Below, piece after piece: positions 1-9,332 of a DNA stretch of 64,000 bases; position 1 is the stretch's first letter, and each line of letters begins with the position of its first letter. The notes below the pieces were generated by a model. The model ran no database searches. It was not told the DNA's origin and saw only the letters and a program-made list of their open reading frames with translations. The position numbers and the translations under genes are program-made. Origin of the DNA: Phycisphaerales bacterium (GTDB lineage Bacteria; Planctomycetota; Phycisphaerae; Sedimentisphaerales; Anaerobacaceae); contig PMZJ01000025.1 in assembly GCA_003170415.1 (NCBI GenBank), positions 1 to 64,000 of the forward strand, in the 5' to 3' direction.

Positions 1-12
1 ATATAGCATAAG

Positions 13-92
13 GTATATTTGACTATAGAAGGTATGCCATTTGTTGCCCAATAAATGTCTATTATTGACTTTTTACAGAATTGATATTTATG
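13..92 (+). repeat. AraC-type control module, copy 1
   Basis: This is the first of three copies of an ~80-bp module. It contains TTGTTGCCC followed by the core GTCTATTATTGAC (57-69) and ends in ATTTATG. It is an imperfect inverted repeat of copy 2 (574-652), with roughly ten differences by eye, and has the same orientation relative to its own strand as the module in front of the AraC gene (4214-4292). The short reading frame starting at 56 stops after about ten codons, so the conservation is at the DNA level. Confidence 0.6.
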
Positions 93-297
93 ATTTTTAA
101 TGCTAAAATAGAGTCAGATTTGTCCCAGCCAGGTGCTTGAAACAAACCGCTTTAGTTATCCGCTTGATCTATTGACTGGGATTTCCCATTTACACTCTTA
201 AACAACATAATTTTTTCCTTACAACATCAATAATCTTGCCAAAATCGCCCTGAACGGTCAAGAAATCTCTTTTCCAAGGCAGTTTTGCCGAGTTAAT

Positions 298-438
298 ATG
301 CTGGACCTCGTTATATTCGTAAATCAGTGGCTTGGAGGCGACTGTTCGGCTGATCCCCATTGTGCTGATTTCAATGGCGATTTGAATGTTGATTCTACTG
401 ATTTTGCATTGATGAGTCAGGAATGGAAGATTAATTAG
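298..438 (+). pseudogene. Dockerin-like C-terminal remnant
   Basis: The frame reads as the end of a secreted Phycisphaerae protein: a half repeat LDLVIFVNQWLGGDC followed by a complete calcium-binding-type repeat with DFNGDLNVDSTDFALM, then a stop at 436-438. It resembles the tail of the GH44 protein downstream, including the paired cysteines between the two repeats. Upstream the frame is open only to about 211 and shows no catalytic domain or signal peptide, so this appears to be the 3' stub of a lost gene. A very short intact gene is possible but unlikely. Confidence 0.5.
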
Positions 439-573
439 AACCTATCCCAAAACCCCCATTATTGGCGTTTTCAACGCAATAAATGGCGTTTTTTGAGGTT
501 TTGGTATGACTTGAAAAACAGGACAATCCTGGATATCCTAATGTATTGTGATACAATAAACGGGGGAAGGTCA

Positions 574-652
574 CATAAATATCGATTCTATAAAAGTCAA
601 TAATAGACATCTGCCGGGCAACAGATGACATATCTTCTATAGTCAAATATGT
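574..652 (-). repeat. AraC-type control module, copy 2
   Basis: This copy is inverted relative to copy 1 and carries the core GTCAATAATAGAC at 596-608, read on the plus strand. It lies directly upstream of the GH44 gene. The core ends 44 nt before the -10 hexamer at 653-658, a distance suited to an AraC-type activator. Confidence 0.6.
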
Positions 653-658
653 TATAAT
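653..658 (+). promoter_or_regulatory. -10 box of the GH44 gene
   Basis: A consensus TATAAT sits 54 nt upstream of the chosen ATG at 712. No good -35 hexamer is visible at the usual distance, which fits activator-dependent transcription from the module just upstream. Confidence 0.45.
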
Positions 659-711
659 ACATGATGCCACGCCTTAAAGCAGAGCATCGCCTGTATTTCG
701 AGGAAAATAAG

Positions 712-3249
712 ATGAAGCAGGTCACAATTTTCATCATATCGGGGTTGTTTATTTCATTAAATTTGTCGATTCAAGCCGCCCCTATTGCTGTTACTTATAA
801 CATTAAAACCGATACGGGCCAAACACCTATCAGCAAATACATATACGGCACAAACTTTTACATGGACACGGATTACACCATTCAAAGAATCGGCGGAAAC
901 CGCTGCACCGCCTATAACTGGGAAAACAACTGGTCCAATGCCGGCAGCGACTATTATTTTGAAAACGACACGATGTGGGATTCATCGAATCCCCCGGTAC
1001 CCGGCCTGGGCTATACTAAACTCATCGACCAGTCTAATTCAATTAACCAGGACTCTATAGTAACCCTGCAATTGGCAGGTTACGTCTCAGCGCCAATCTC
1101 TGGGATGGATTTGAATAGCCAACCGGCCCCATCGCAGTATTTTTATCCCGTTCAATTCGCCAAAGGCGCTCCATTCTGCAGTCCGCCGAACAATCCAAAC
1201 ACTTCCGATGGCGTTGTTTATATGGATGAATTCGTGAATTTTCTCGTTTGGAAATATGGTTATGCAGGCACTCCGACCGGAGTCAAATTCTACTCTTTGG
1301 ATAATGAGGTTGACATTTGGAATGCAACTCATTACGAAGTTCATCCGGCACATCCCTTATGCCAGGAAATTAGAGACAAAGGCGTTGCTTGTGCGGCAGC
1401 AGTCAAAAATGTTGACCCCAATGCCCAAATAACGGGACCTGTCCTTTGCGTGTTCACGGGGTTCCTAAATCTGTGCGGTGCATCCGACTGGTCAAGCGTG
1501 TCAGCAGGCCGACCTTGGTTCATAAGTTATTATCTTGATGAAATGAAAAAGGCGTCGGATGCCAATGGAAGAAGGCTCCTCGATGTTCTTGATGTTCACT
1601 GGTATCCCCCGGAGGATGACGGCAACGGCCATGGTATTTGTACCGACGGTCTTAACGATGCGCGACTGTTTAACGCAAGAATGCAGGCGCCGAGAACCCT
1701 TTGGGACCAAGATTATGTTTATCCAAATACGACATATCCTAATGGCGGTTCAAGCTGGGTAAACCAATCGTATTGGGCGCAATTTTTGCCAATTCTCACA
1801 AGATTTAAATCTGACATACAGACTTACTTTCCGGACACCAATATAGCAATCTCGGAATATACCTGGGGCCCTTCTACGCAATGGGCAACCGGTATTACCA
1901 CAGCCGATTTTCTGGGCATTTGCGGCAAGTATGGCGTATATATGACTAATTACTGGGGAAGTGGCGGCTATATTGACACAGCGGTACAAATGTACAGGAA
2001 TTACGACGGTCTCCATTCGACTTTCGGTGATACCAACGTTCCTGCGACTATGTCAGATAAAGTGAACAGCTCTATTTACGCCTCTGTATTCGCAAGCAAT
2101 GCCAATGAGCTTCATCTTATGGTTATCAATAAAAACCAGACCAGCGATATTACCGGGACATTCAATATCAACAGTCCGCAAAACTTCTTGGCCGGCAGGG
2201 TCTGGAAATTCGATAACACCAGTTCAACCATTTCGGAAACCACCGCAATCAACACCATCACAAATAACTCGTTCACTTATATCATCCCTGCGATGACTGT
2301 TTGCCATATTGTGCTTCGGGTAACCCCGCTAAACGTTTCCATAACTTCGCCTCTCGACGGCGATAGATTTATATCGGGAGACGACATTGTCATTGAGGCA
2401 AATGCTTCCGCTGTTAACGGCTTCGTAACAAAAGTGGAATTCTTTCAAGGTTCGACAAAACTGGGTGAAGATACAGAACCGCCGTATTCTTACACGTGGA
2501 ACGATGTCAACTTGGGCCGATACAGTTTGACCGCACGGGCTACGGATAATAATAACGGGACAACTACCTCAACAGCAGTAAATATCAATGTTGTCAGCGG
2601 CGACGCCACCGGCTTCATTTTAAGAGAATGGTGGACCGAAATTTCCGGAACAGCTGTTAGTAATCTGACCTCGGATATAAATTACCCGACTAACCCGAAT
2701 GGGCGAGCATTGCTTACGTCATTCGAAGGACCTACCAACTGGGCGGATAATTACGGAACGCGTATTCGCGGGTATCTGTACCCACCTGCAAACGGCAATT
2801 ATACGTTCTGGATTGCCAGCGATGACAACGGTCAGTTATGGCTCAGCACCGATGACGACCCTTGCCACGCTGTCCAGATTGCGTATGTGGCAAACTGGAC
2901 GAATTCTCGCGTATGGAACACAGAAACTAATCAGCAGTCGTCGCCCAAACCGCTGCTGGCGGGGCATAAGTATTACATAGAGGCCTTGCAGAAGGAAGGC
3001 GGCGGCGGCGACAATATAGCGGTTGCCTGGCAGGGGCCAGGTATAACGCAGCAGGTAATTGACGGGGCATATCTGTCGCCCTATTTGTATAATTTCAAGG
3101 ATTACGCGACTTTTGCTCCCCAGTGGTTAAAAACCAACTGCTCCCGGTCAAACGCCTGGTGCAGCGGCGCCGATCGCGACCGCGACGGTAACGTCCAGAT
3201 TGATGATTTGGCGGCGTTTGCCGACTGGTGGCTCTATGACAGTGAATAA
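712..3249 (+). CDS. Secreted GH44 endoglucanase/xyloglucanase with Ig-like, PA14 and dockerin-like modules
   Basis: The likely role is endo-hydrolysis of beta-1,4-glucans or xyloglucan outside the cell. The start at 712 follows an A/G-rich GAGGAAAATAAG and gives a clean signal peptide (MKQVTIFIISGLF... cut near residue 23). Residues of about 30-535 show GH44 hallmarks: RIGGNRCTAYNWENN and SNAGSDYYF, the acid/base Glu199 in DNEVDIW and the nucleophile Glu382 in ISEYTWG. A chitobiase-type Ig-like domain follows (NVSITSPLDGDRF), then a PA14 domain (about 645-790), then a two-repeat dockerin-like tail with NCSRSNAWCSGADRDRDG. An in-frame ATG at 661 would abut the -10 box and destroy the signal peptide position. 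A terminator follows. The family call is firm; the exact substrate is inferred. Confidence 0.88.
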   Translation: MKQVTIFIISGLFISLNLSIQAAPIAVTYNIKTDTGQTPISKYIYGTNFYMDTDYTIQRIGGNRCTAYNWENNWSNAGSDYYFENDTMWDSSNPPVPGLGYTKLIDQSNSINQDSIVTLQLAGYVSAPISGMDLNSQPAPSQYFYPVQFAKGAPFCSPPNNPNTSDGVVYMDEFVNFLVWKYGYAGTPTGVKFYSLDNEVDIWNATHYEVHPAHPLCQEIRDKGVACAAAVKNVDPNAQITGPVLCVFTGFLNLCGASDWSSVSAGRPWFISYYLDEMKKASDANGRRLLDVLDVHWYPPEDDGNGHGICTDGLNDARLFNARMQAPRTLWDQDYVYPNTTYPNGGSSWVNQSYWAQFLPILTRFKSDIQTYFPDTNIAISEYTWGPSTQWATGITTADFLGICGKYGVYMTNYWGSGGYIDTAVQMYRNYDGLHSTFGDTNVPATMSDKVNSSIYASVFASNANELHLMVINKNQTSDITGTFNINSPQNFLAGRVWKFDNTSSTISETTAINTITNNSFTYIIPAMTVCHIVLRVTPLNVSITSPLDGDRFISGDDIVIEANASAVNGFVTKVEFFQGSTKLGEDTEPPYSYTWNDVNLGRYSLTARATDNNNGTTTSTAVNINVVSGDATGFILREWWTEISGTAVSNLTSDINYPTNPNGRALLTSFEGPTNWADNYGTRIRGYLYPPANGNYTFWIASDDNGQLWLSTDDDPCHAVQIAYVANWTNSRVWNTETNQQSSPKPLLAGHKYYIEALQKEGGGGDNIAVAWQGPGITQQVIDGAYLSPYLYNFKDYATFAPQWLKTNCSRSNAWCSGADRDRDGNVQIDDLAAFADWWLYDSE

Positions 3250-3280
3250 GATAGCATATGCAAATTGAATCTGAATAAAA

Positions 3281-3311
3281 GGGCCGCAAATTATTCTGCG
3301 GCCCTTTTTTA
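3281..3311. terminator. Bidirectional intrinsic terminator
   Basis: GGGCCGCA and TGCGGCCC form a GC-rich stem at 3281-3304 followed by TTTTTT on the plus strand; the minus strand also ends in a T-rich run. It separates the convergent GH44 and AraC genes. Confidence 0.85.
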
Positions 3312-3346
3312 CTTCTTAAAATTTCAAATTCTCAGTCTCCGTGTTT

Positions 3347-4216
3347 TTAACGTAAGTTTTTAAAGGTGCCGGGGGGTATACCAAAAATCCGTTTGAATAC
3401 TCTGGAAAAATTGAAAGGATCGCTGAAACCGAATTCCCGCGCCACTTCCTTTACCGATGAATCTGATGATTGAAGTCGCTGTGCCGCGAGATTCATTTTC
3501 ATTTGCATCAGATATTGATATGGGCTTTGGTTGTCGAATCTTTTGAAGAGTCTGCAAAGATAAGCATTAGCTATATTACATTCTTCGGCAATCATATCGA
3601 GGCTTCGTATCGAAAGGCAATTCTTCTGTATGATTTCCCTGGATTTTTGATAGGTATAAAAAGCAGCAGACTTTCGTGTATTTTCAATTATAGAAGTTTC
3701 GGCGATTTTAAAAATGAGTTGCTGCAAAATGGCCGTGCATAAAAGGGGAGTATAAGAACTGCCATTTTGCCCATTTTTTATGAGATCTTCAAAAATTCTT
3801 ATTATCGCATCAGGCGCAGATACCTGAACAGCGCTTCCCAAAGCAGGACGGAATTTTCGCAGCATTTTTAAAGCTTCGGACCCGGTAAAATCGACGAAAT
3901 ATTTGACCAGAGGAAATTCAGTTTCATTTGTAATTATATGAGCTATACCCGGGCCGTAAGAAAATACTTTTCCGGCAAAAAGTGTATTTTTTTTATCATC
4001 AAAAACAACTGCGCCTCTTCCACTTGCCACAAATTCAATGGAATAAAAAGGGAAATTAGAACGATCGATTCGATACCCTGGCTGACAATGTTCCCGGCCG
4101 CCGCATACGACCTTAAGTTTTTGATTTTTTTGAGATTGGGTATTTAGATAAAAACGATTTGCCTCCATGACCTGGTTGGAAAAAAAATCCGGCTCTCTTT
4201 TATCAACAGGAACCAT
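3347..4216 (-). CDS. AraC-family transcriptional regulator
   Basis: The C-terminal ~100 residues carry two helix-turn-helix motifs of the AraC/HTH_18 type: SLDMIAEECNIANAYLCRLF and VAREFGFSDPFNFSRVFKR, ending in the usual GIPPGTFK. The N-terminal ~150 residues fit a cupin-like sugar-sensing domain. The frame is open to an earlier ATG at 4246, giving an MSIIDFYG start. That segment, however, is the DNA module also found at 13-92 and 574-652, where it is non-coding, and all three copies end in ATTTATG, which here is the ATG at 4216, so 4216 is preferred. The gene is divergent from the epimerase-led run and is the obvious candidate regulator of the locus, including GH44. Confidence 0.85.
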   Translation of the reverse strand: MVPVDKREPDFFSNQVMEANRFYLNTQSQKNQKLKVVCGGREHCQPGYRIDRSNFPFYSIEFVASGRGAVVFDDKKNTLFAGKVFSYGPGIAHIITNETEFPLVKYFVDFTGSEALKMLRKFRPALGSAVQVSAPDAIIRIFEDLIKNGQNGSSYTPLLCTAILQQLIFKIAETSIIENTRKSAAFYTYQKSREIIQKNCLSIRSLDMIAEECNIANAYLCRLFKRFDNQSPYQYLMQMKMNLAAQRLQSSDSSVKEVAREFGFSDPFNFSRVFKRIFGIPPGTFKNLR

Positions 4217-4292
4217 AAATAATCCATAAAAGTCAATAATAGACATCTAGTGGGCAACAATTGGCATATACTGTAATCATATTTGTATTATA
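4214..4292 (-). promoter_or_regulatory. araC promoter with control module, copy 3
   Basis: The third copy of the module has GTCAATAATAGAC at 4232-4244 and GGGCAAC at 4252-4258. On the minus strand a perfect TATAAT (+4287-4292) lies upstream and would start transcription through the module into the AraC gene. The site would then sit in the leader or early transcribed region, which suits autorepression; it could also act on the divergent run at 4388. Confidence 0.5.
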
Positions 4293-4387
4293 CTAAATAT
4301 GATGAGAAAATCAAGAGTCAATAAGATACAGGTATTAATTCCCGATTCTAAAGTCATTTATTGAGCGGGATAAAAGAGAGGATAATA

Positions 4388-5431
4388 ATGGCAAAGAAGA
4401 ACAATTCGGCAGCGGTCTCATGTATGAAAGAGGACGATTTAATTGTCATTACAGGGGCCGGTGGATTTATCGCCGGGGCATTAGCGAGATATTTCCGCAA
4501 ACAGGGCTTTACCCGCATCCGCGCGATAGACAAAAAGCCGCTGCCGCAATGGTACCAGCAAATCGAAGGCGTAGAATGCCTCTGCATGGACCTGAGTAAT
4601 GAGGGAAATTGCCGCAGGGCCTGCCAGGATGCCGTCGAAGTTTACAATCTTGCTGCGGACATGGGTGGAATGGGATTCATAGAGCGATACAGGATAGAAT
4701 GCCTGCGAAGCATATTAATCAATACACATATGATAGAGTCAGCTTACAGGGCCGGCGCCCGGAGGTATTTCTTCTCATCTTCAGCCTGCGCTTATAACAT
4801 CGAGTTGCAGAAAGATAAAAATTCCCGCGCATTAAAAGAATCCGATGCTTACCCGGCAATGGCTGAGCGGGGATATGGATGGGAGAAACTTATGTCTGAG
4901 ATGTTCTGCCAGGAGTATTATGCGGAAAGAGGATTAGAGACGCATATCGCGAGATTCCATAACGTTTATGGTCCATACGGAACATGGGCCGGTGGACGTG
5001 AAAAGGCCCCCGCTGCAATTTGCCGTAAAGTCATTGAGGCTAAAAATGAAAATTCCGACGAAATCGTTATATGGGGCGACGGGAATCAGACACGCAGCTT
5101 TATGTATATCGATGATTGCGTTAAAGGCATCGATATGATTATGCACTGCGATAAACTTATAGCTACTCCAGTCAATCTCGGGTCAGACCGACTTGTTTCA
5201 ATTAATGACCTGGTTTCAATAGTTGTAGGCATCGGCGGTATCACATTGAAACGCAAATATGATTTGAATGCCCCAAAGGGTGTTGCCGGGCGAAACAGCG
5301 ACAACACATTCATTCAAAAGGTTCTCGGCTGGCAGCCGAATACTCCGCTTGAGGAAGGTTTAAAGAATACTTACGAGTGGATTGAGCAGCAATACAAGGA
5401 CCGCAAAGCCGGCAAACAAACGGTAAATTGA
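4388..5431 (+). CDS. GDP-mannose 3,5-epimerase-like short-chain dehydrogenase
   Basis: This is an extended-SDR nucleotide-sugar enzyme: NAD-binding VITGAGGFIAG near residue 22, the SSSACAYN serine motif and the catalytic YGWEK. The stretches GTWAGGREKAPAAICRK and GDGNQTRSFMYIDDCVKG are characteristic of GDP-mannose 3,5-epimerases, which make GDP-L-galactose and GDP-L-gulose; other GDP- or UDP-sugars cannot be excluded. The ATG at 4388 follows GAGAGG at normal spacing; a TTG at 4361 in frame is less likely. It heads a tight run with the kinase and nucleotidyltransferase, suggesting production or remodelling of an activated L-sugar. In bacteria this enzyme next to fucosidases is uncommon. Confidence 0.8.
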   Translation: MAKKNNSAAVSCMKEDDLIVITGAGGFIAGALARYFRKQGFTRIRAIDKKPLPQWYQQIEGVECLCMDLSNEGNCRRACQDAVEVYNLAADMGGMGFIERYRIECLRSILINTHMIESAYRAGARRYFFSSSACAYNIELQKDKNSRALKESDAYPAMAERGYGWEKLMSEMFCQEYYAERGLETHIARFHNVYGPYGTWAGGREKAPAAICRKVIEAKNENSDEIVIWGDGNQTRSFMYIDDCVKGIDMIMHCDKLIATPVNLGSDRLVSINDLVSIVVGIGGITLKRKYDLNAPKGVAGRNSDNTFIQKVLGWQPNTPLEEGLKNTYEWIEQQYKDRKAGKQTVN

Positions 5432-5436
5432 AAGAT

Positions 5437-6237
5437 ATGACGAAAAATAATCGACTTATTGAAGATGTAATTGGAAAACTTCCATATCGACTTGCTCTTG
5501 CAGGCGGATGGATTGACCAGCCTTTTGTCTCAATGCATAATCCCTCGCCTCCCGGTTCGATGGTAGTTGTCAGCGTCGAGCCGCAATTCAGGTTTATAGA
5601 GCGGGCCGGCATTTGCAGCAGCACACGTAAGATCGCTCTTAAATTGTGGAAAGATGGTCTGCTGTTGGGGAATCCTGAAGAGCTTGTTCAAAAACTTTAT
5701 ATGGAGGAGAATAAAGGTAAAGCCGAGCCATCGGGTTCTCAGGATATGATTGGCATAATCCATCCCGGAATTAATAGACTGGATTATGATTTCACTTATC
5801 GTAAAGGTGTTTTTCCACGCTATATCGAATCATGTAATGATCCCCAAATAGCCGGATGGCTTGAAAAAGTAATTCATATTCTGCCGGTAGCCCCCAGGCC
5901 GGAAGGATACAATCCGTTGGAAACAAAAAACCTGTCTCCTGAATGGATTTCACGTCTCGGAAAGTCAGGCAGGAATTGTTATGAGGCTATTATTGCCAAA
6001 GATGTCGATGCGCTGGGAGCATCGATGAATGAATGTATGTCTTGTTGGGAAAAAATTTTGCCGGGCACGGTTCGTCATCATAAATTAAATGAGGATTTGC
6101 TTCCTTTGCTCGAATATTATCGTTCAAGCTACCCCGGCGCTATGTATTCAGGCTGCGGGGGCGGTTATTTATTTGTCGCATCCCAAAAACCTGTCCCCGG
6201 CGCTTTCAATATCAAAGTGAGAATCAAACAATCATGA
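5437..6237 (+). CDS. GHMP-family sugar kinase-like protein
   Basis: The N-terminus LPYRLALAGGWIDQPFV matches the substrate-binding start of galactokinase, fucokinase and heptose kinases, and SGCGGGYLFVAS near the C-terminus is the third GHMP motif. The usual ATP-loop PxxxGLSSSAA is replaced by EPSGSQDMIGII, closest to the SGxQD form seen in heptose-phosphate kinases. It probably phosphorylates a sugar at C1; which sugar is unknown. A TTG at 5428 overlaps the upstream stop, but the ATG at 5437 is preferred. The stop overlaps the next start by four bases, so the two are translationally coupled. At 266 residues it is short for a fucokinase. Confidence 0.68.
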   Translation: MTKNNRLIEDVIGKLPYRLALAGGWIDQPFVSMHNPSPPGSMVVVSVEPQFRFIERAGICSSTRKIALKLWKDGLLLGNPEELVQKLYMEENKGKAEPSGSQDMIGIIHPGINRLDYDFTYRKGVFPRYIESCNDPQIAGWLEKVIHILPVAPRPEGYNPLETKNLSPEWISRLGKSGRNCYEAIIAKDVDALGASMNECMSCWEKILPGTVRHHKLNEDLLPLLEYYRSSYPGAMYSGCGGGYLFVASQKPVPGAFNIKVRIKQS

Positions 6238-7058
6238 ATAAAGAAAGGAAGGATGTTGTTGTATGCGGAGGATTTGATGATATTCGTTCCTCGGATATTC
6301 GTTTTTTGCATAAAGCATCGAACTTCGGCCTTCTAAACGTATTGTTATGGAACGACGAATTAATAAAATCGAAAACCGGAAATAATCCCAGATTCCCGCA
6401 AAATGAGCGGCTATATTTTCTACAGGCAGTCCGCTATGTTCATAAAGTTTTTATTATAAAATCACTCGATGAAATATTTTCTTTAATTAAATACTTAAAC
6501 TCCTGCATCTGGATTGTTCAACAACAAGAAGATAATCCGGCAATAAGAACATTTTGTAAAACAGCAAAAATAGAATATCTCATTCTTGAAAAAACCGGTC
6601 TTAAAGATTTTCCAGATTTAGGCCTGATGAAATCAGATAATCCCTCCAGAAAAAAGGTGCTTGTCACCGGCTGCTTTGACTGGTTTCATTCCGGTCATGT
6701 CCGTTTTTTTGAGGAAGTATCCCAGTTAGGCAATTTGTATGTTGTTGTGGGCAATGATGCGAATGTTAAAGCCTTAAAAGGATCAGGGCACCCGATGTTT
6801 TCACAAGACGAACGCCGGTATATGACAGAATCTATCAGATATGTTACACAGGCTCTTATTTCAACAGGACAGGGATGGCTGGATGCGGAACCTGAATTGA
6901 AAATGCTAAAACCTGAATTTTATGCTGTGAATGAAGATGGGGACGGACCCGAAAAGCGAAATTATTGTCAGCAAAACGGGATTAAATATGTTGTTCTAAA
7001 GCGTCTGCCTAAAGAAGGTCTTCCGATAAGGCAAAGCACAATAATGCGTGGTTTTTAA
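6234..7058 (+). CDS. Tandem cytidylyltransferase-like protein (one active, one degenerate domain)
   Basis: There are two nucleotidyltransferase-fold halves. The second half starts KKVLVTGCFDWFHSGHVRF and keeps the HxGH signature of the cytidylyltransferase superfamily, plus VVGNDANVKALKG and a late IRQSTIMR resembling ISSTxIR. The first half starts DVVVCGGFDDIRSSDIRFLH, the same pattern with the two histidines lost, so it should be inactive. It overlaps the kinase gene (ATGA), which points to a two-step pathway of sugar phosphorylation followed by nucleotidylation. The nucleotide and the sugar phosphate cannot be read from the sequence. Confidence 0.72.
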   Translation: MNKERKDVVVCGGFDDIRSSDIRFLHKASNFGLLNVLLWNDELIKSKTGNNPRFPQNERLYFLQAVRYVHKVFIIKSLDEIFSLIKYLNSCIWIVQQQEDNPAIRTFCKTAKIEYLILEKTGLKDFPDLGLMKSDNPSRKKVLVTGCFDWFHSGHVRFFEEVSQLGNLYVVVGNDANVKALKGSGHPMFSQDERRYMTESIRYVTQALISTGQGWLDAEPELKMLKPEFYAVNEDGDGPEKRNYCQQNGIKYVVLKRLPKEGLPIRQSTIMRGF

Positions 7059-7088
7059 AAATTTAATATTTTATTTTGGAAAACTAAT

Positions 7089-7481
7089 ATGAAAAAGACT
7101 TTCAAAAGATTTTGCAAATATATCAGACTTAAAAATGCCCCGGAACTTATTGAAGAATATAAAATACTTCATTCTATGGGGGCAGGTTGGCCTGAAATTA
7201 CAGAAGGGATGAAGCAAGTCGGCATCATTGATATGGAAATTTATATCTCGGGAACAAATCTATTTATGATTATGGATACCAAGGCGGACTTCGATCATGA
7301 AAAAGCAATGGCTCAATTAGCGAAATTGCCAAGACAGGCCGAATGGGAAACATTTGTTTCAAAATATCAAGAAACAAATCACGATGCGACGGCTGGTGAA
7401 AAATGGCGAGTGCTTGAACGAATATACAAAATGGACAAAAACACGAATATAACCCTGAAGACGGCTACATTGAACAGATAA
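7089..7481 (+). CDS. L-rhamnose/L-fucose mutarotase family protein
   Basis: This 130-residue protein is of the RhaM type (PF05336): FCKYIRLKNAPELIEEY at the start, VGIIDMEIYISGTNLFMIMD in the middle and a late W-E-x-F. The family interconverts anomers of 6-deoxy-L-sugars. It lies 30 nt after the nucleotidyltransferase and before two fucosidases, so L-fucose is the likelier substrate. The last ~15 residues (NTNITLKTATLNR) are not conserved-looking. Confidence 0.8.
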   Translation: MKKTFKRFCKYIRLKNAPELIEEYKILHSMGAGWPEITEGMKQVGIIDMEIYISGTNLFMIMDTKADFDHEKAMAQLAKLPRQAEWETFVSKYQETNHDATAGEKWRVLERIYKMDKNTNITLKTATLNR

Positions 7482-7616
7482 ACAGTATTTAAGGCAGGAC
7501 GCCGGCGGAAGTGACTGTTGAGAGCAAATAAAATTAGAACGGTTTGTAAAAAAAAAATAAAAAAACATGTCCCATACCCATGATTAATACAGTCTTTATA
7601 TATAATGGGGATTTGT

Positions 7617-9332
7617 ATGAAGATTTCCAGACGTGAAGTTATGCGGATATTGGCCGGGGCCTTACCAGCAGCTTTTTTATCTTCTTGCGGCCATTCTCAG
7701 CAGCAGACCAAAAAACCAATTGCCCAGGAGCCTAATAAGCCCGCACCTGTGCCCGCTCCTAAAATTAAAATACCTCCCGCACCGACCCATATACCTGCTC
7801 CTCCTGGTTTCGGCATAGCAAAAGGACCATTTGAACTAACGTGGGAATCTCTTTCGGCTTACCAGGTCCCTGACTGGTATCGTGACGCGAAATTCGGAAT
7901 CTGGGCGCATTGGGGCCCGCAATGTCAGCCGGAAATGGGGGACTGGTATGCCCAGCAGATGTATTATGAGGATAATCAAATTTACAGATTCCATTGTAAA
8001 AAATACGGTCATCCTTCCAAATTCGGCTTCAAAGATGTTATCAACGAATGGAAGGCTGAAAACTGGGACCCCAAATCGCTTATCGAATTTTATAAAAAAG
8101 CGGGAGCCAGATATTTCTGTGCCCTGGCCAATCACCATGATAATCTCGATTTATGGGATTCTACATATCAGCCATGGAACAGCGTCGCTATCGGCCCTAA
8201 GAAAAATATTATAGCAGGCTGGGAAAAGGCAGTCCGTGACGCGGGTCTTCGTTTCGCGGTTTCTGTTCATGCCGCCCGAACATGGGACTGGTTCCAGCCC
8301 GCCCAGGGGTGGGATAGAAAGGGTGAATTTGCCGGTATTCCTTATGACGGCCTTTTAACAAAAGCCGATGGCAAAGGTAAATGGTGGGATGGCCTCGATC
8401 CCCAGGACCTGTATGCTCAGTATCATCGCAGAGGCACATATAAATATACGCTGGAAGGACAGCCGCCTCTTGATAAGGGATATATTGAAAAATTCTATAA
8501 TCGCACGATTGACCTCATAAGCAAATATAATCCGGACCTGCTTTACTTCGATGATACAATTTTGCCGATTTATCCGACAAGCGATATTGGTCTTAAAATT
8601 GCCGCATATTTTTATAATACAAACCTGGCAAAAAATGGAAAACTCGATGCTGTTTTAACCGGCAAAATACTAAAACCCGAACATCGCAAAGCCATATTAT
8701 ATGATGTCGAAAGAGGAGTTACTGAAGGCGCCGAGACGCTGCCCTGGCAAACAGATACCTGTATCGGCTCATGGCATTATGACCGCAGGATTTACAACGG
8801 GCGTGCATATAAAACCCCAAAACAGGTCATCCAGATGCTCATCGATATTGTCAGCAAAAACGGAAACCTGATGCTCAGTGTACCAGTCCGCGGCGATGGA
8901 ACCATTGATGAGTTGGAAGTAAAAGTTGTTGAGGGGATTGGCCAGTGGTTATCTGCAAATGGAGAAGGAATTTATGCGTCCCGCCCGTGGAAGGTTTACG
9001 GTGAAGGTCCCGCTACAATAAATAAAACGGGAAAAGGCGCGACATCAGATGTAAAAAGATATACTGCCGAAGACATTCGCTTCACTACAAATGGAGATAT
9101 CTTATACGCATTTGCCATGGCCTGGCCCGAAAACGGAAAAACTGTAATTAAATCTCTGGCAAAAGGAAACGAAAACATGCCTGGAGAAATCGGGAAAATA
9201 GAAATGCTCGGAGCCGGTGGTCCTTTGACTTTTGACCGAAATGACCAGGGTCTTACAGTAAATCTTCCCCAAACCAAACCAAATGAATTTGCTTATACAT
9301 TAAAAATTTCGCCCAAACAGGAAAAAGCGTGA
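7617..9332 (+). CDS. GH29 alpha-L-fucosidase, Tat-type lipoprotein
   Basis: The start at 7617 follows GGGG at seven bases; the ATG at 7605 is less suitable. SRREVMRILAGAL has a twin arginine and is followed by the lipobox LSSC, suggesting Tat export and lipid anchoring. A Pro/Ala-rich linker precedes the catalytic domain (from about residue 70): AKFGIWAHWGPQ, ALANHHDNLDLWDS and DLLYFDDTILP with the nucleophile Asp312, all typical of GH29. A small beta-sandwich domain follows (about 450-570). It should remove terminal fucose. It is the first of four hydrolases in the same direction, 33 nt before the GH2 gene. Confidence 0.88.
   Translation: MKISRREVMRILAGALPAAFLSSCGHSQQQTKKPIAQEPNKPAPVPAPKIKIPPAPTHIPAPPGFGIAKGPFELTWESLSAYQVPDWYRDAKFGIWAHWGPQCQPEMGDWYAQQMYYEDNQIYRFHCKKYGHPSKFGFKDVINEWKAENWDPKSLIEFYKKAGARYFCALANHHDNLDLWDSTYQPWNSVAIGPKKNIIAGWEKAVRDAGLRFAVSVHAARTWDWFQPAQGWDRKGEFAGIPYDGLLTKADGKGKWWDGLDPQDLYAQYHRRGTYKYTLEGQPPLDKGYIEKFYNRTIDLISKYNPDLLYFDDTILPIYPTSDIGLKIAAYFYNTNLAKNGKLDAVLTGKILKPEHRKAILYDVERGVTEGAETLPWQTDTCIGSWHYDRRIYNGRAYKTPKQVIQMLIDIVSKNGNLMLSVPVRGDGTIDELEVKVVEGIGQWLSANGEGIYASRPWKVYGEGPATINKTGKGATSDVKRYTAEDIRFTTNGDILYAFAMAWPENGKTVIKSLAKGNENMPGEIGKIEMLGAGGPLTFDRNDQGLTVNLPQTKPNEFAYTLKISPKQEKA

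Follow-up and report, generated by a model that had tools for sequence, protein, structure and literature searches.

The question raised by this locus is why some 60-80 bp of DNA recur around the gene of an AraC-family regulator and that of a GH44 glycoside hydrolase. In the window (the whole 64,000-nucleotide stretch of DNA analysed), the 13-mer GTCTATTATTGAC is found exactly at 57-69 on the (+) strand and at 596-608 and 4232-4244 on the (-) strand, and sequence likeness extends ~60-80 bp around each copy. An earlier note on this DNA had described three copies of a control module, and these are real, each containing the exact 13-mer; the TTGTTGCCC that it placed near the core is matched letter for letter by copies 1 and 3, whereas copy 2 reads CTGTTGCCC. 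When up to two mismatches are tolerated, the window holds 5 matches to the 13-mer against 1.14 expected, a number reached in 0 of 100 shuffles.

The genome (2.67 Mb in 43 contigs) contains the exact 13-mer six times, three in the contig of the window (C30) and three in C14, a contig of 9770 bp. With up to one mismatch, 8 matches are obtained versus 7 for a reversed control pattern, so that only exact, long matches of the 13-mer carry weight. A 77-bp query returned the same six places and one extra at E = 1.16; a sequence-profile search, run with stricter filters able to lose weak matches, returned the same six, each at E < 1e-11, together with a partial match in C25 (E 0.037). Since C30 and C14 begin with the same 107 bp in reverse-complement orientation, copy A (C30:57) and the match at C14:39-51 may be one place, which gives five or six distinct places: A (C30:57, C14:39), B, C, E (C14:5603) and F (C14:9658). 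C14 and C30 probably abut at copy A, C14 preceding, in which case the cluster of sites would span one locus. In the genome-wide motif scan that the earlier note had proposed, the exact 13-mer is confined to C30 and C14, and every distinct place sits just upstream of a gene; the many copies away from promoters that it had named as evidence against an operator were not observed in the genome scans. Positions 5503-5631 and 9642-9770 of C14 (L009) form an exact inverted repeat of 129 bp, the second copy being the contig end, which is either a true duplication or an assembly repeat.

A pair of direct-repeat half-sites

The unit first described, a 13-bp core plus TTGTTGCCC, has to be corrected to two direct-repeat half-sites lying on the opposite strand. 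Read on that strand, the module is a candidate operator of 38 bp that points to the downstream genes and consists of two 17-bp half-sites, GNCAANNNTNKNCAT, with a 4-bp spacer and a pitch of 21 bp; a -10-like hexamer comes next. The layout at each place is GTCAATAATAGACATCT-NNNN-GGCAACAAATGGCATAT, then the -10-like hexamer, then the gene. Copy A occupies 32..69 on the (-) strand (half-site 1 69-53, spacer 52-49, half-site 2 48-32) and is directed towards a GH44 fragment in C14; copy B occupies 596..633 on the (+) strand (half-site 1 596-612, spacer 613-616, half-site 2 617-633) and is directed towards the GH44 gene of the window. Copy C, at 4232..4269 on the (+) strand (half-site 1 4232-4248, spacer 4249-4252, half-site 2 4253-4269), stands in the gap that separates araC from a divergent epimerase operon and faces both.

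At a shift of 21 bp, half-sites 1 and 2 are identical at 10 (A), 11 (B), 12 (C), 11 (E) and 11 (F) of 17 positions. Shuffles of single copies gave P 0.0005-0.010 at shift 21 and P 0.008-0.23 across shifts 17-40 (copy A, weak by itself, standing at P = 0.010 and 0.23), and because of the latter range the repeat is unproven from single copies alone. In 22 araC-linked loci, 10 of them planctomycete and 12 not used for the profile presented below, half-site 1 and the sequence 21 bp further on agree at 10.91 of 17 positions on average, against a mean of 4.43 (sd 1.22) over shifts 8-59, the next best reaching 6.23; none of 2000 column shuffles attained 10.91 at any shift, for all 22 loci and for each subset, a statistic that is partly conditioned for the 12, since the profile that picked them already contains both half-sites at a fixed pitch. 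Less conditioned evidence may come from position 12, which by eye is C in both half-sites of 7 of the 12 non-profile loci and of 0 of the 10 planctomycete loci, as if both half-sites changed together. When half-sites are pooled (n = 44), the counts are G1 44, C3 43, A4 44, A5 44, T9 42, C13 40, A14 42 and T15 44. A palindromic reading was also considered, as GTCTATTATTGAC resembles an inverted repeat, but was rejected: the common feature is the match in the same orientation at 21 bp.

Conservation beside the regulator gene

The araC gene lies at 3347..4246 on the (-) strand. Its product is a member of the AraC/XylS family, with both the DNA-binding and the sugar-binding/dimerisation domain recognised: HTH_18 scores 70.7 bits against a cut-off of 33.6 over the C-terminal residues 219-296, HTH_AraC is also above its cut-off, and the N-terminal AraC_binding domain (PF02311) scores a modest 24.9 bits against 21.1. 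Besides G000, orthologues of this gene are found in G001 (91% identity) and G003 (94%), while G002 has none at E <= 1e-20 and only a 24% match. Module matches number six in G000, three in G001, four in G003 and zero in G002, such that, of the four genus genomes, the same three possess an araC orthologue and module matches.

At the level of the family, an AraC relative at E <= 1e-20 is present in 15 of 89 genomes. In a gapless scan of the regions, the interval separating araC from the divergent epimerase gene contained a 17+4+17 site in G043, G080, G076, G009, G004, G005, G007 and G051 (49-66% AraC identity). A weaker site of 29.5 bits stands at the same place in G075 (60% identity); G025 (43%) has only a poor match of 4.3 bits, 2.8 kb from araC, and both it and G056 possess an AraC relative and no strong site. 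Strong sites were also found in G041 (L096, L116, L117), G032 (L095, L111) and G006 (L093), three genomes yet having no AraC relative at E <= 1e-8, which points either to incomplete assembly or to another regulator. Over the 89 genomes, 12 have site and araC, 3 araC only, 3 site only and 71 neither (Fisher P 8e-10, with relatedness ignored, an araC cut-off of E <= 1e-20, a site cut-off of E <= 1e-4 chosen after seeing the list, and many of the sites adjoining araC itself).

Alternatively, the sites might mainly serve another regulator with an AraC-type domain, for instance a LacI-AraC (XylR-like) fusion, AraC being secondary or uninvolved. The three genomes just mentioned would fit such a situation, as would three ORFs: a LacI-AraC fusion of 392 aa, encoded divergently from the G001:C15 site, a similar one divergent from the G003:C20 site, and one of 89 aa, remnant-like, close to the C14:5603 site. 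It is the AraC gene, however, and not a fusion, that the site adjoins in the loci examined across the family and beyond, and we judge this explanation improbable. Cross-talk is possible with the LacI-AraC fusions that stand divergent from two operator sites of the genus (L058:1516-2694 and L060 near 9507).

Twenty-two loci with AraC relatives, taken from a scan of named genomes, were searched with a profile built on 21 sites. In 17 of the 22, the best profile position of the whole locus coincides with the araC 5' end or lies no more than 65 bp from it, in inverted orientation; in L064 the best match is the GH44 site and the araC-adjacent site comes second. Six of these loci are from profile-source genomes (L061, L063-L066, L079), and among the 16 outside the profile L062 is masked at the araC 5' end, which leaves 15 readable. 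In 12 of these 15 the best match adjoins the araC 5' end, and the profile scan gave no site upstream of araC in L075, L081 and L082. The 12 positives comprise nine MAGs titled Verrucomicrobia, Limisphaerales or Akkermansiaceae, L077 (Pirellulaceae) and the bacteria L072 and L076; the lowest (L073, L074, L076 and L077) score 3.9-9.1 bits, yet at least 19 bits above the next place in the locus. Their divergent gene, as judged from its sequence without Pfam, appears to be the same epimerase in 10 of the 12, and is aldo-keto reductase-like in L070 and fucosidase-like in L078. The operator design thus seems to be kept by relatives of the regulator in two bacterial phyla (Planctomycetota, and MAGs titled Verrucomicrobia). 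No earlier description of this operator was found in the one open-licence library searched; it is absent from the excerpts of PMC5583593, and the text of PMC11131199 does not mention AraC. At L081:8874, downstream of the distant AraC relative (33% identity), stands a near-perfect pair of tandem half-sites (ATCAGGAATCGGCATGT / GTCAGGAATCGACATCT), perhaps the operator of a sister regulator.

The question also arises as to whether the copies are alike simply by descent, being promoter DNA that was recently duplicated and travelled with GH44 and its neighbours, with no operator involved. The GH44 gene and the C14 fragment have a start sequence in common, places E and F are identical over 129 bp, and within the genus one copy closely resembles another. 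The spread of the copies could well be due to duplication, which would not explain, however, why the half-sites persist at an exact pitch: beside araC this pitch is exact at ~43-66% AraC identity, in surroundings that have diverged. As a full account we hold duplication to be improbable, a shade less likely than service to another regulator. The earlier proposal of an operator for the AraC-family protein is supported by the site beside araC in the 12 of 15 readable non-profile loci, and we consider it probable that the module is the operator of the protein encoded at 3347-4246, which would act as a sugar-responsive activator of sugar-degradation genes. The candidate operator and its small candidate regulon are well supported, for a regulator of a known kind.

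Promoter geometry, start codon and a third half-site

The operator lies upstream of the -10-like hexamer. For GH44, the putative -10 is TATAAT at 653..658 on the (+) strand, 36 bp past the start of half-site 2, and for the epimerase it is TATACT at 4289..4294 on the (+) strand, whose reverse complement falls within AGTATAATA on the araC strand; copy A has a weak TATGCT at 10-5 on the (-) strand, read by eye (4 of 6 bases). A hexamer with 5-6 of the 6 TATAAT bases begins 36-38 bp past the start of half-site 2 at 11 of 13 genus sites, the exceptions being copy A, with only TATGCT, and G003:C20, with none; at some sites, other offsets offer a -10-like hexamer just as good. From offset 36, a spacer of 17 bp would make the -35 hexamer overlap the last 4 bp of half-site 2, and if transcription begins 7 nt past the -10, the centre of the operator would be at ~-50 in B and C. 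This geometry fits activation at the target promoters.

In araBAD, half-sites of 17 bp stand at a pitch of 21 bp and overlap the -35 by 4 bp, and rhaBAD also has tandem half-sites. The module resembles araI1-I2 of E. coli in having an AraC-family protein as its probable regulator and two direct-repeat half-sites at a 21-bp pitch; the araBAD half-sites are next to or overlap the -35 region, and here a -10-like hexamer stands at a fitting distance in the 11 of 13 genus sites. A further single candidate half-site on the side of the araC promoter, described below, would be another common point. The letters of the half-sites differ, however, and the protein scores 60.6 bits with the E. coli-type AraC model (NF007860), below its curated cut-off of 208. 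Activators of the RhaS type are likewise AraC-family sugar activators, and the genes that follow copy C include one for a RhaM-type mutarotase; the RhaS model (NF010028) gives 45.8 bits, far below its curated cut-off of 288, and no rhamnose isomerase or kinase was present among the genes scanned. According to excerpts of PMC7408454, the operator centre of araBAD is at -52.5, to be compared with ~-50 here from the assumed start. Excerpts of the same source and of PMC4486848 describe how, with sugar, an AraC dimer on I1-I2 by the -35 activates, and how, without sugar, AraC bridges I1 to a distant half-site.

By analogy, we infer AraC binding, activation, an inducer and autoregulation as follows. 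A dimer of the regulator would occupy both half-sites (GNCAANNNTNKNCAT, 4 bp apart), whose four boxes at 0, 10, 21 and 31 bp would lie on one face of the helix. The end of half-site 2 would coincide with the expected -35 of the target promoter, the -10-like hexamer following 36-38 bp past the start of that half-site. Once bound to its inducer, for which L-fucose or a related sugar is our guess, the dimer would bring in RNA polymerase in the manner of AraC at araI1-I2; the genes switched on would be GH44, the CBM6/PA14 and pseudopilin-like genes of C14, and the string of genes from epimerase to fucosidase. At the araC promoter, copy C overlaps the araC 5' end and might also limit araC transcription.

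This overlap has a consequence for the start codon of araC. Read on the other strand, the CAT box in half-site 1 of copy C gives the ATG at 4246. As the earlier note had argued, the conservation of 'MSIIDF' is a matter of DNA; the peptide letters come from this conserved box in reverse. Of 24 araC loci, 9 carry at the box an ATG that shares an open frame with araC, 2 (L021, L080) carry ATA, and in 13 the frame or a stop excludes the box codon as the araC start. A coding origin of the conserved stretch, as a native MSIIDF N terminus or a short leader peptide, would agree with those 9 loci, with the occurrence of ATGTCTATTATTGAC in every copy and with its continuation at C14:5603 (MSIIDFAKDFIKV...) over 58 codons. 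The unusable or ATA codons in the remaining loci, however, argue against it, as do the stop after 9 codons in copy A and the extension of the conservation to half-site 2, upstream of the ATG, and we find this origin very improbable. The move of the start to 4216, which had been proposed as necessary, is favoured for this genus, where G001 has ATA at the codon corresponding to 4246 and its earliest in-frame ATG at the equivalent of 4216, but the sequence does not establish that it is required. In L071, L073, L074 and L076, no likely araC start was seen besides the box ATG, which may be the real one there. An ATG created by a conserved operator box can thus mislead calls of the araC start.

A third, single half-site, termed O (GTCAATAAGATACAGGT), is seen at 4317..4333 on the (+) strand, 85 bp past the start of copy C. 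Regulator and operator are otherwise of a known kind, and this half-site at 85 bp is the least ordinary part of the locus. All 12 planctomycete araC loci examined, 3 of them from this genus, have a GTCAA site 83-87 bp past the start of half-site 1; as O was chosen by the string GTCAA, its own profile is circular. The profile of half-sites 1 and 2 peaks at offset 85 in the planctomycete set, at -9.4 (mean -23.2, sd 4.4), with offset 52 a close runner-up at -10.9. Offset 85 comes only sixth in the remaining 12 loci, and O is unsupported for that group; outside the planctomycete set, a site resembling O does stand at 84-85 in L068 and L072. The TTGAC of O was also considered as the -35 of araC, and rejected: its distance to the shared TATAAT, 23-24 bp in loci counted by eye, is too long.

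Looping at the araC promoter is possible by analogy. Without sugar, a dimer would bridge half-site 1 and O, 85 bp or ~8 turns apart, and the resulting mini-loop would enclose the -10 shared by the two divergent promoters and silence both. With sugar bound, the dimer would shift to half-sites 1-2, so that the epimerase-fucosidase genes would be on and araC blocked, and target promoters devoid of O would undergo activation only. That the araC/epimerase promoter is such a compact two-way switch, silenced on both sides by the sugar-free loop, seems to us rather doubtful.

Genes after the sites

The first gene differs from place to place: the C14 GH44 fragment after A, GH44 after B, the epimerase after C, a CBM6/PA14 protein after E and a pseudopilin-like protein (N_methyl, DUF1559) after F. 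The GH44 glycoside hydrolase of the window (712..3249 on the (+) strand, ATG at 712, the mechanical ORF running from 661) carries Big_7 and PA14 domains. The first gene past copy C encodes an NAD-dependent epimerase/dehydratase (PF01370; 4388..5431), whose best NCBIfam match is GDP-L-fucose synthase, at 115 bits against a cut-off of 500. It is followed on the same (+) strand by a protein with no Pfam hit (5428-6237), a cytidylyltransferase-like protein (6234-7058), the RhaM-type mutarotase (7089-7481) and, last of the genes listed, a GH29 alpha-L-fucosidase (7605-9332), and the genes from 5428 to 9332 would be co-transcribed with the epimerase.

A Pfam scan of ten proteins encoded after further sites gave four GH29 (L093, L097, L098, L112), one GH127 (L110), a GH65N_2 domain in L096, an epimerase in L095 and no match for L058, L060 and L111. 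As the GH65N_2 domain is usual in GH95, we take L096 to be of GH95 type. By sequence alone, L109 and L115 are GH29-like, L116 is GH2-like and L118 resembles a LamG protein; the site of L119, at 2.2 bits, is probably a chance match. The candidate operator would serve GH44, the epimerase operon and secreted proteins, and the regulon is probably linked to fucose. A readable operator code would thus be available for a sugar regulator of Planctomycetota and MAGs titled Verrucomicrobia, groups rich in glycan degradation. Such a code lists genes likely to be co-controlled, including those of proteins with no family assignment, and points to a candidate class of inducer.

Two pieces of genes were observed near copy A. 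In C14, L009:166-639 is a fragment of a GH44 paralogue, the start of which matches the GH44 of the window and the frame of which ends at ~158 codons; it is either a decayed copy or an assembly fault. Between copies A and B, positions 280-440 of the window hold a piece that, judged by its sequence alone, is dockerin-like (MLDLVIFVNQWLGGDC...), seemingly the remnant of a gene.
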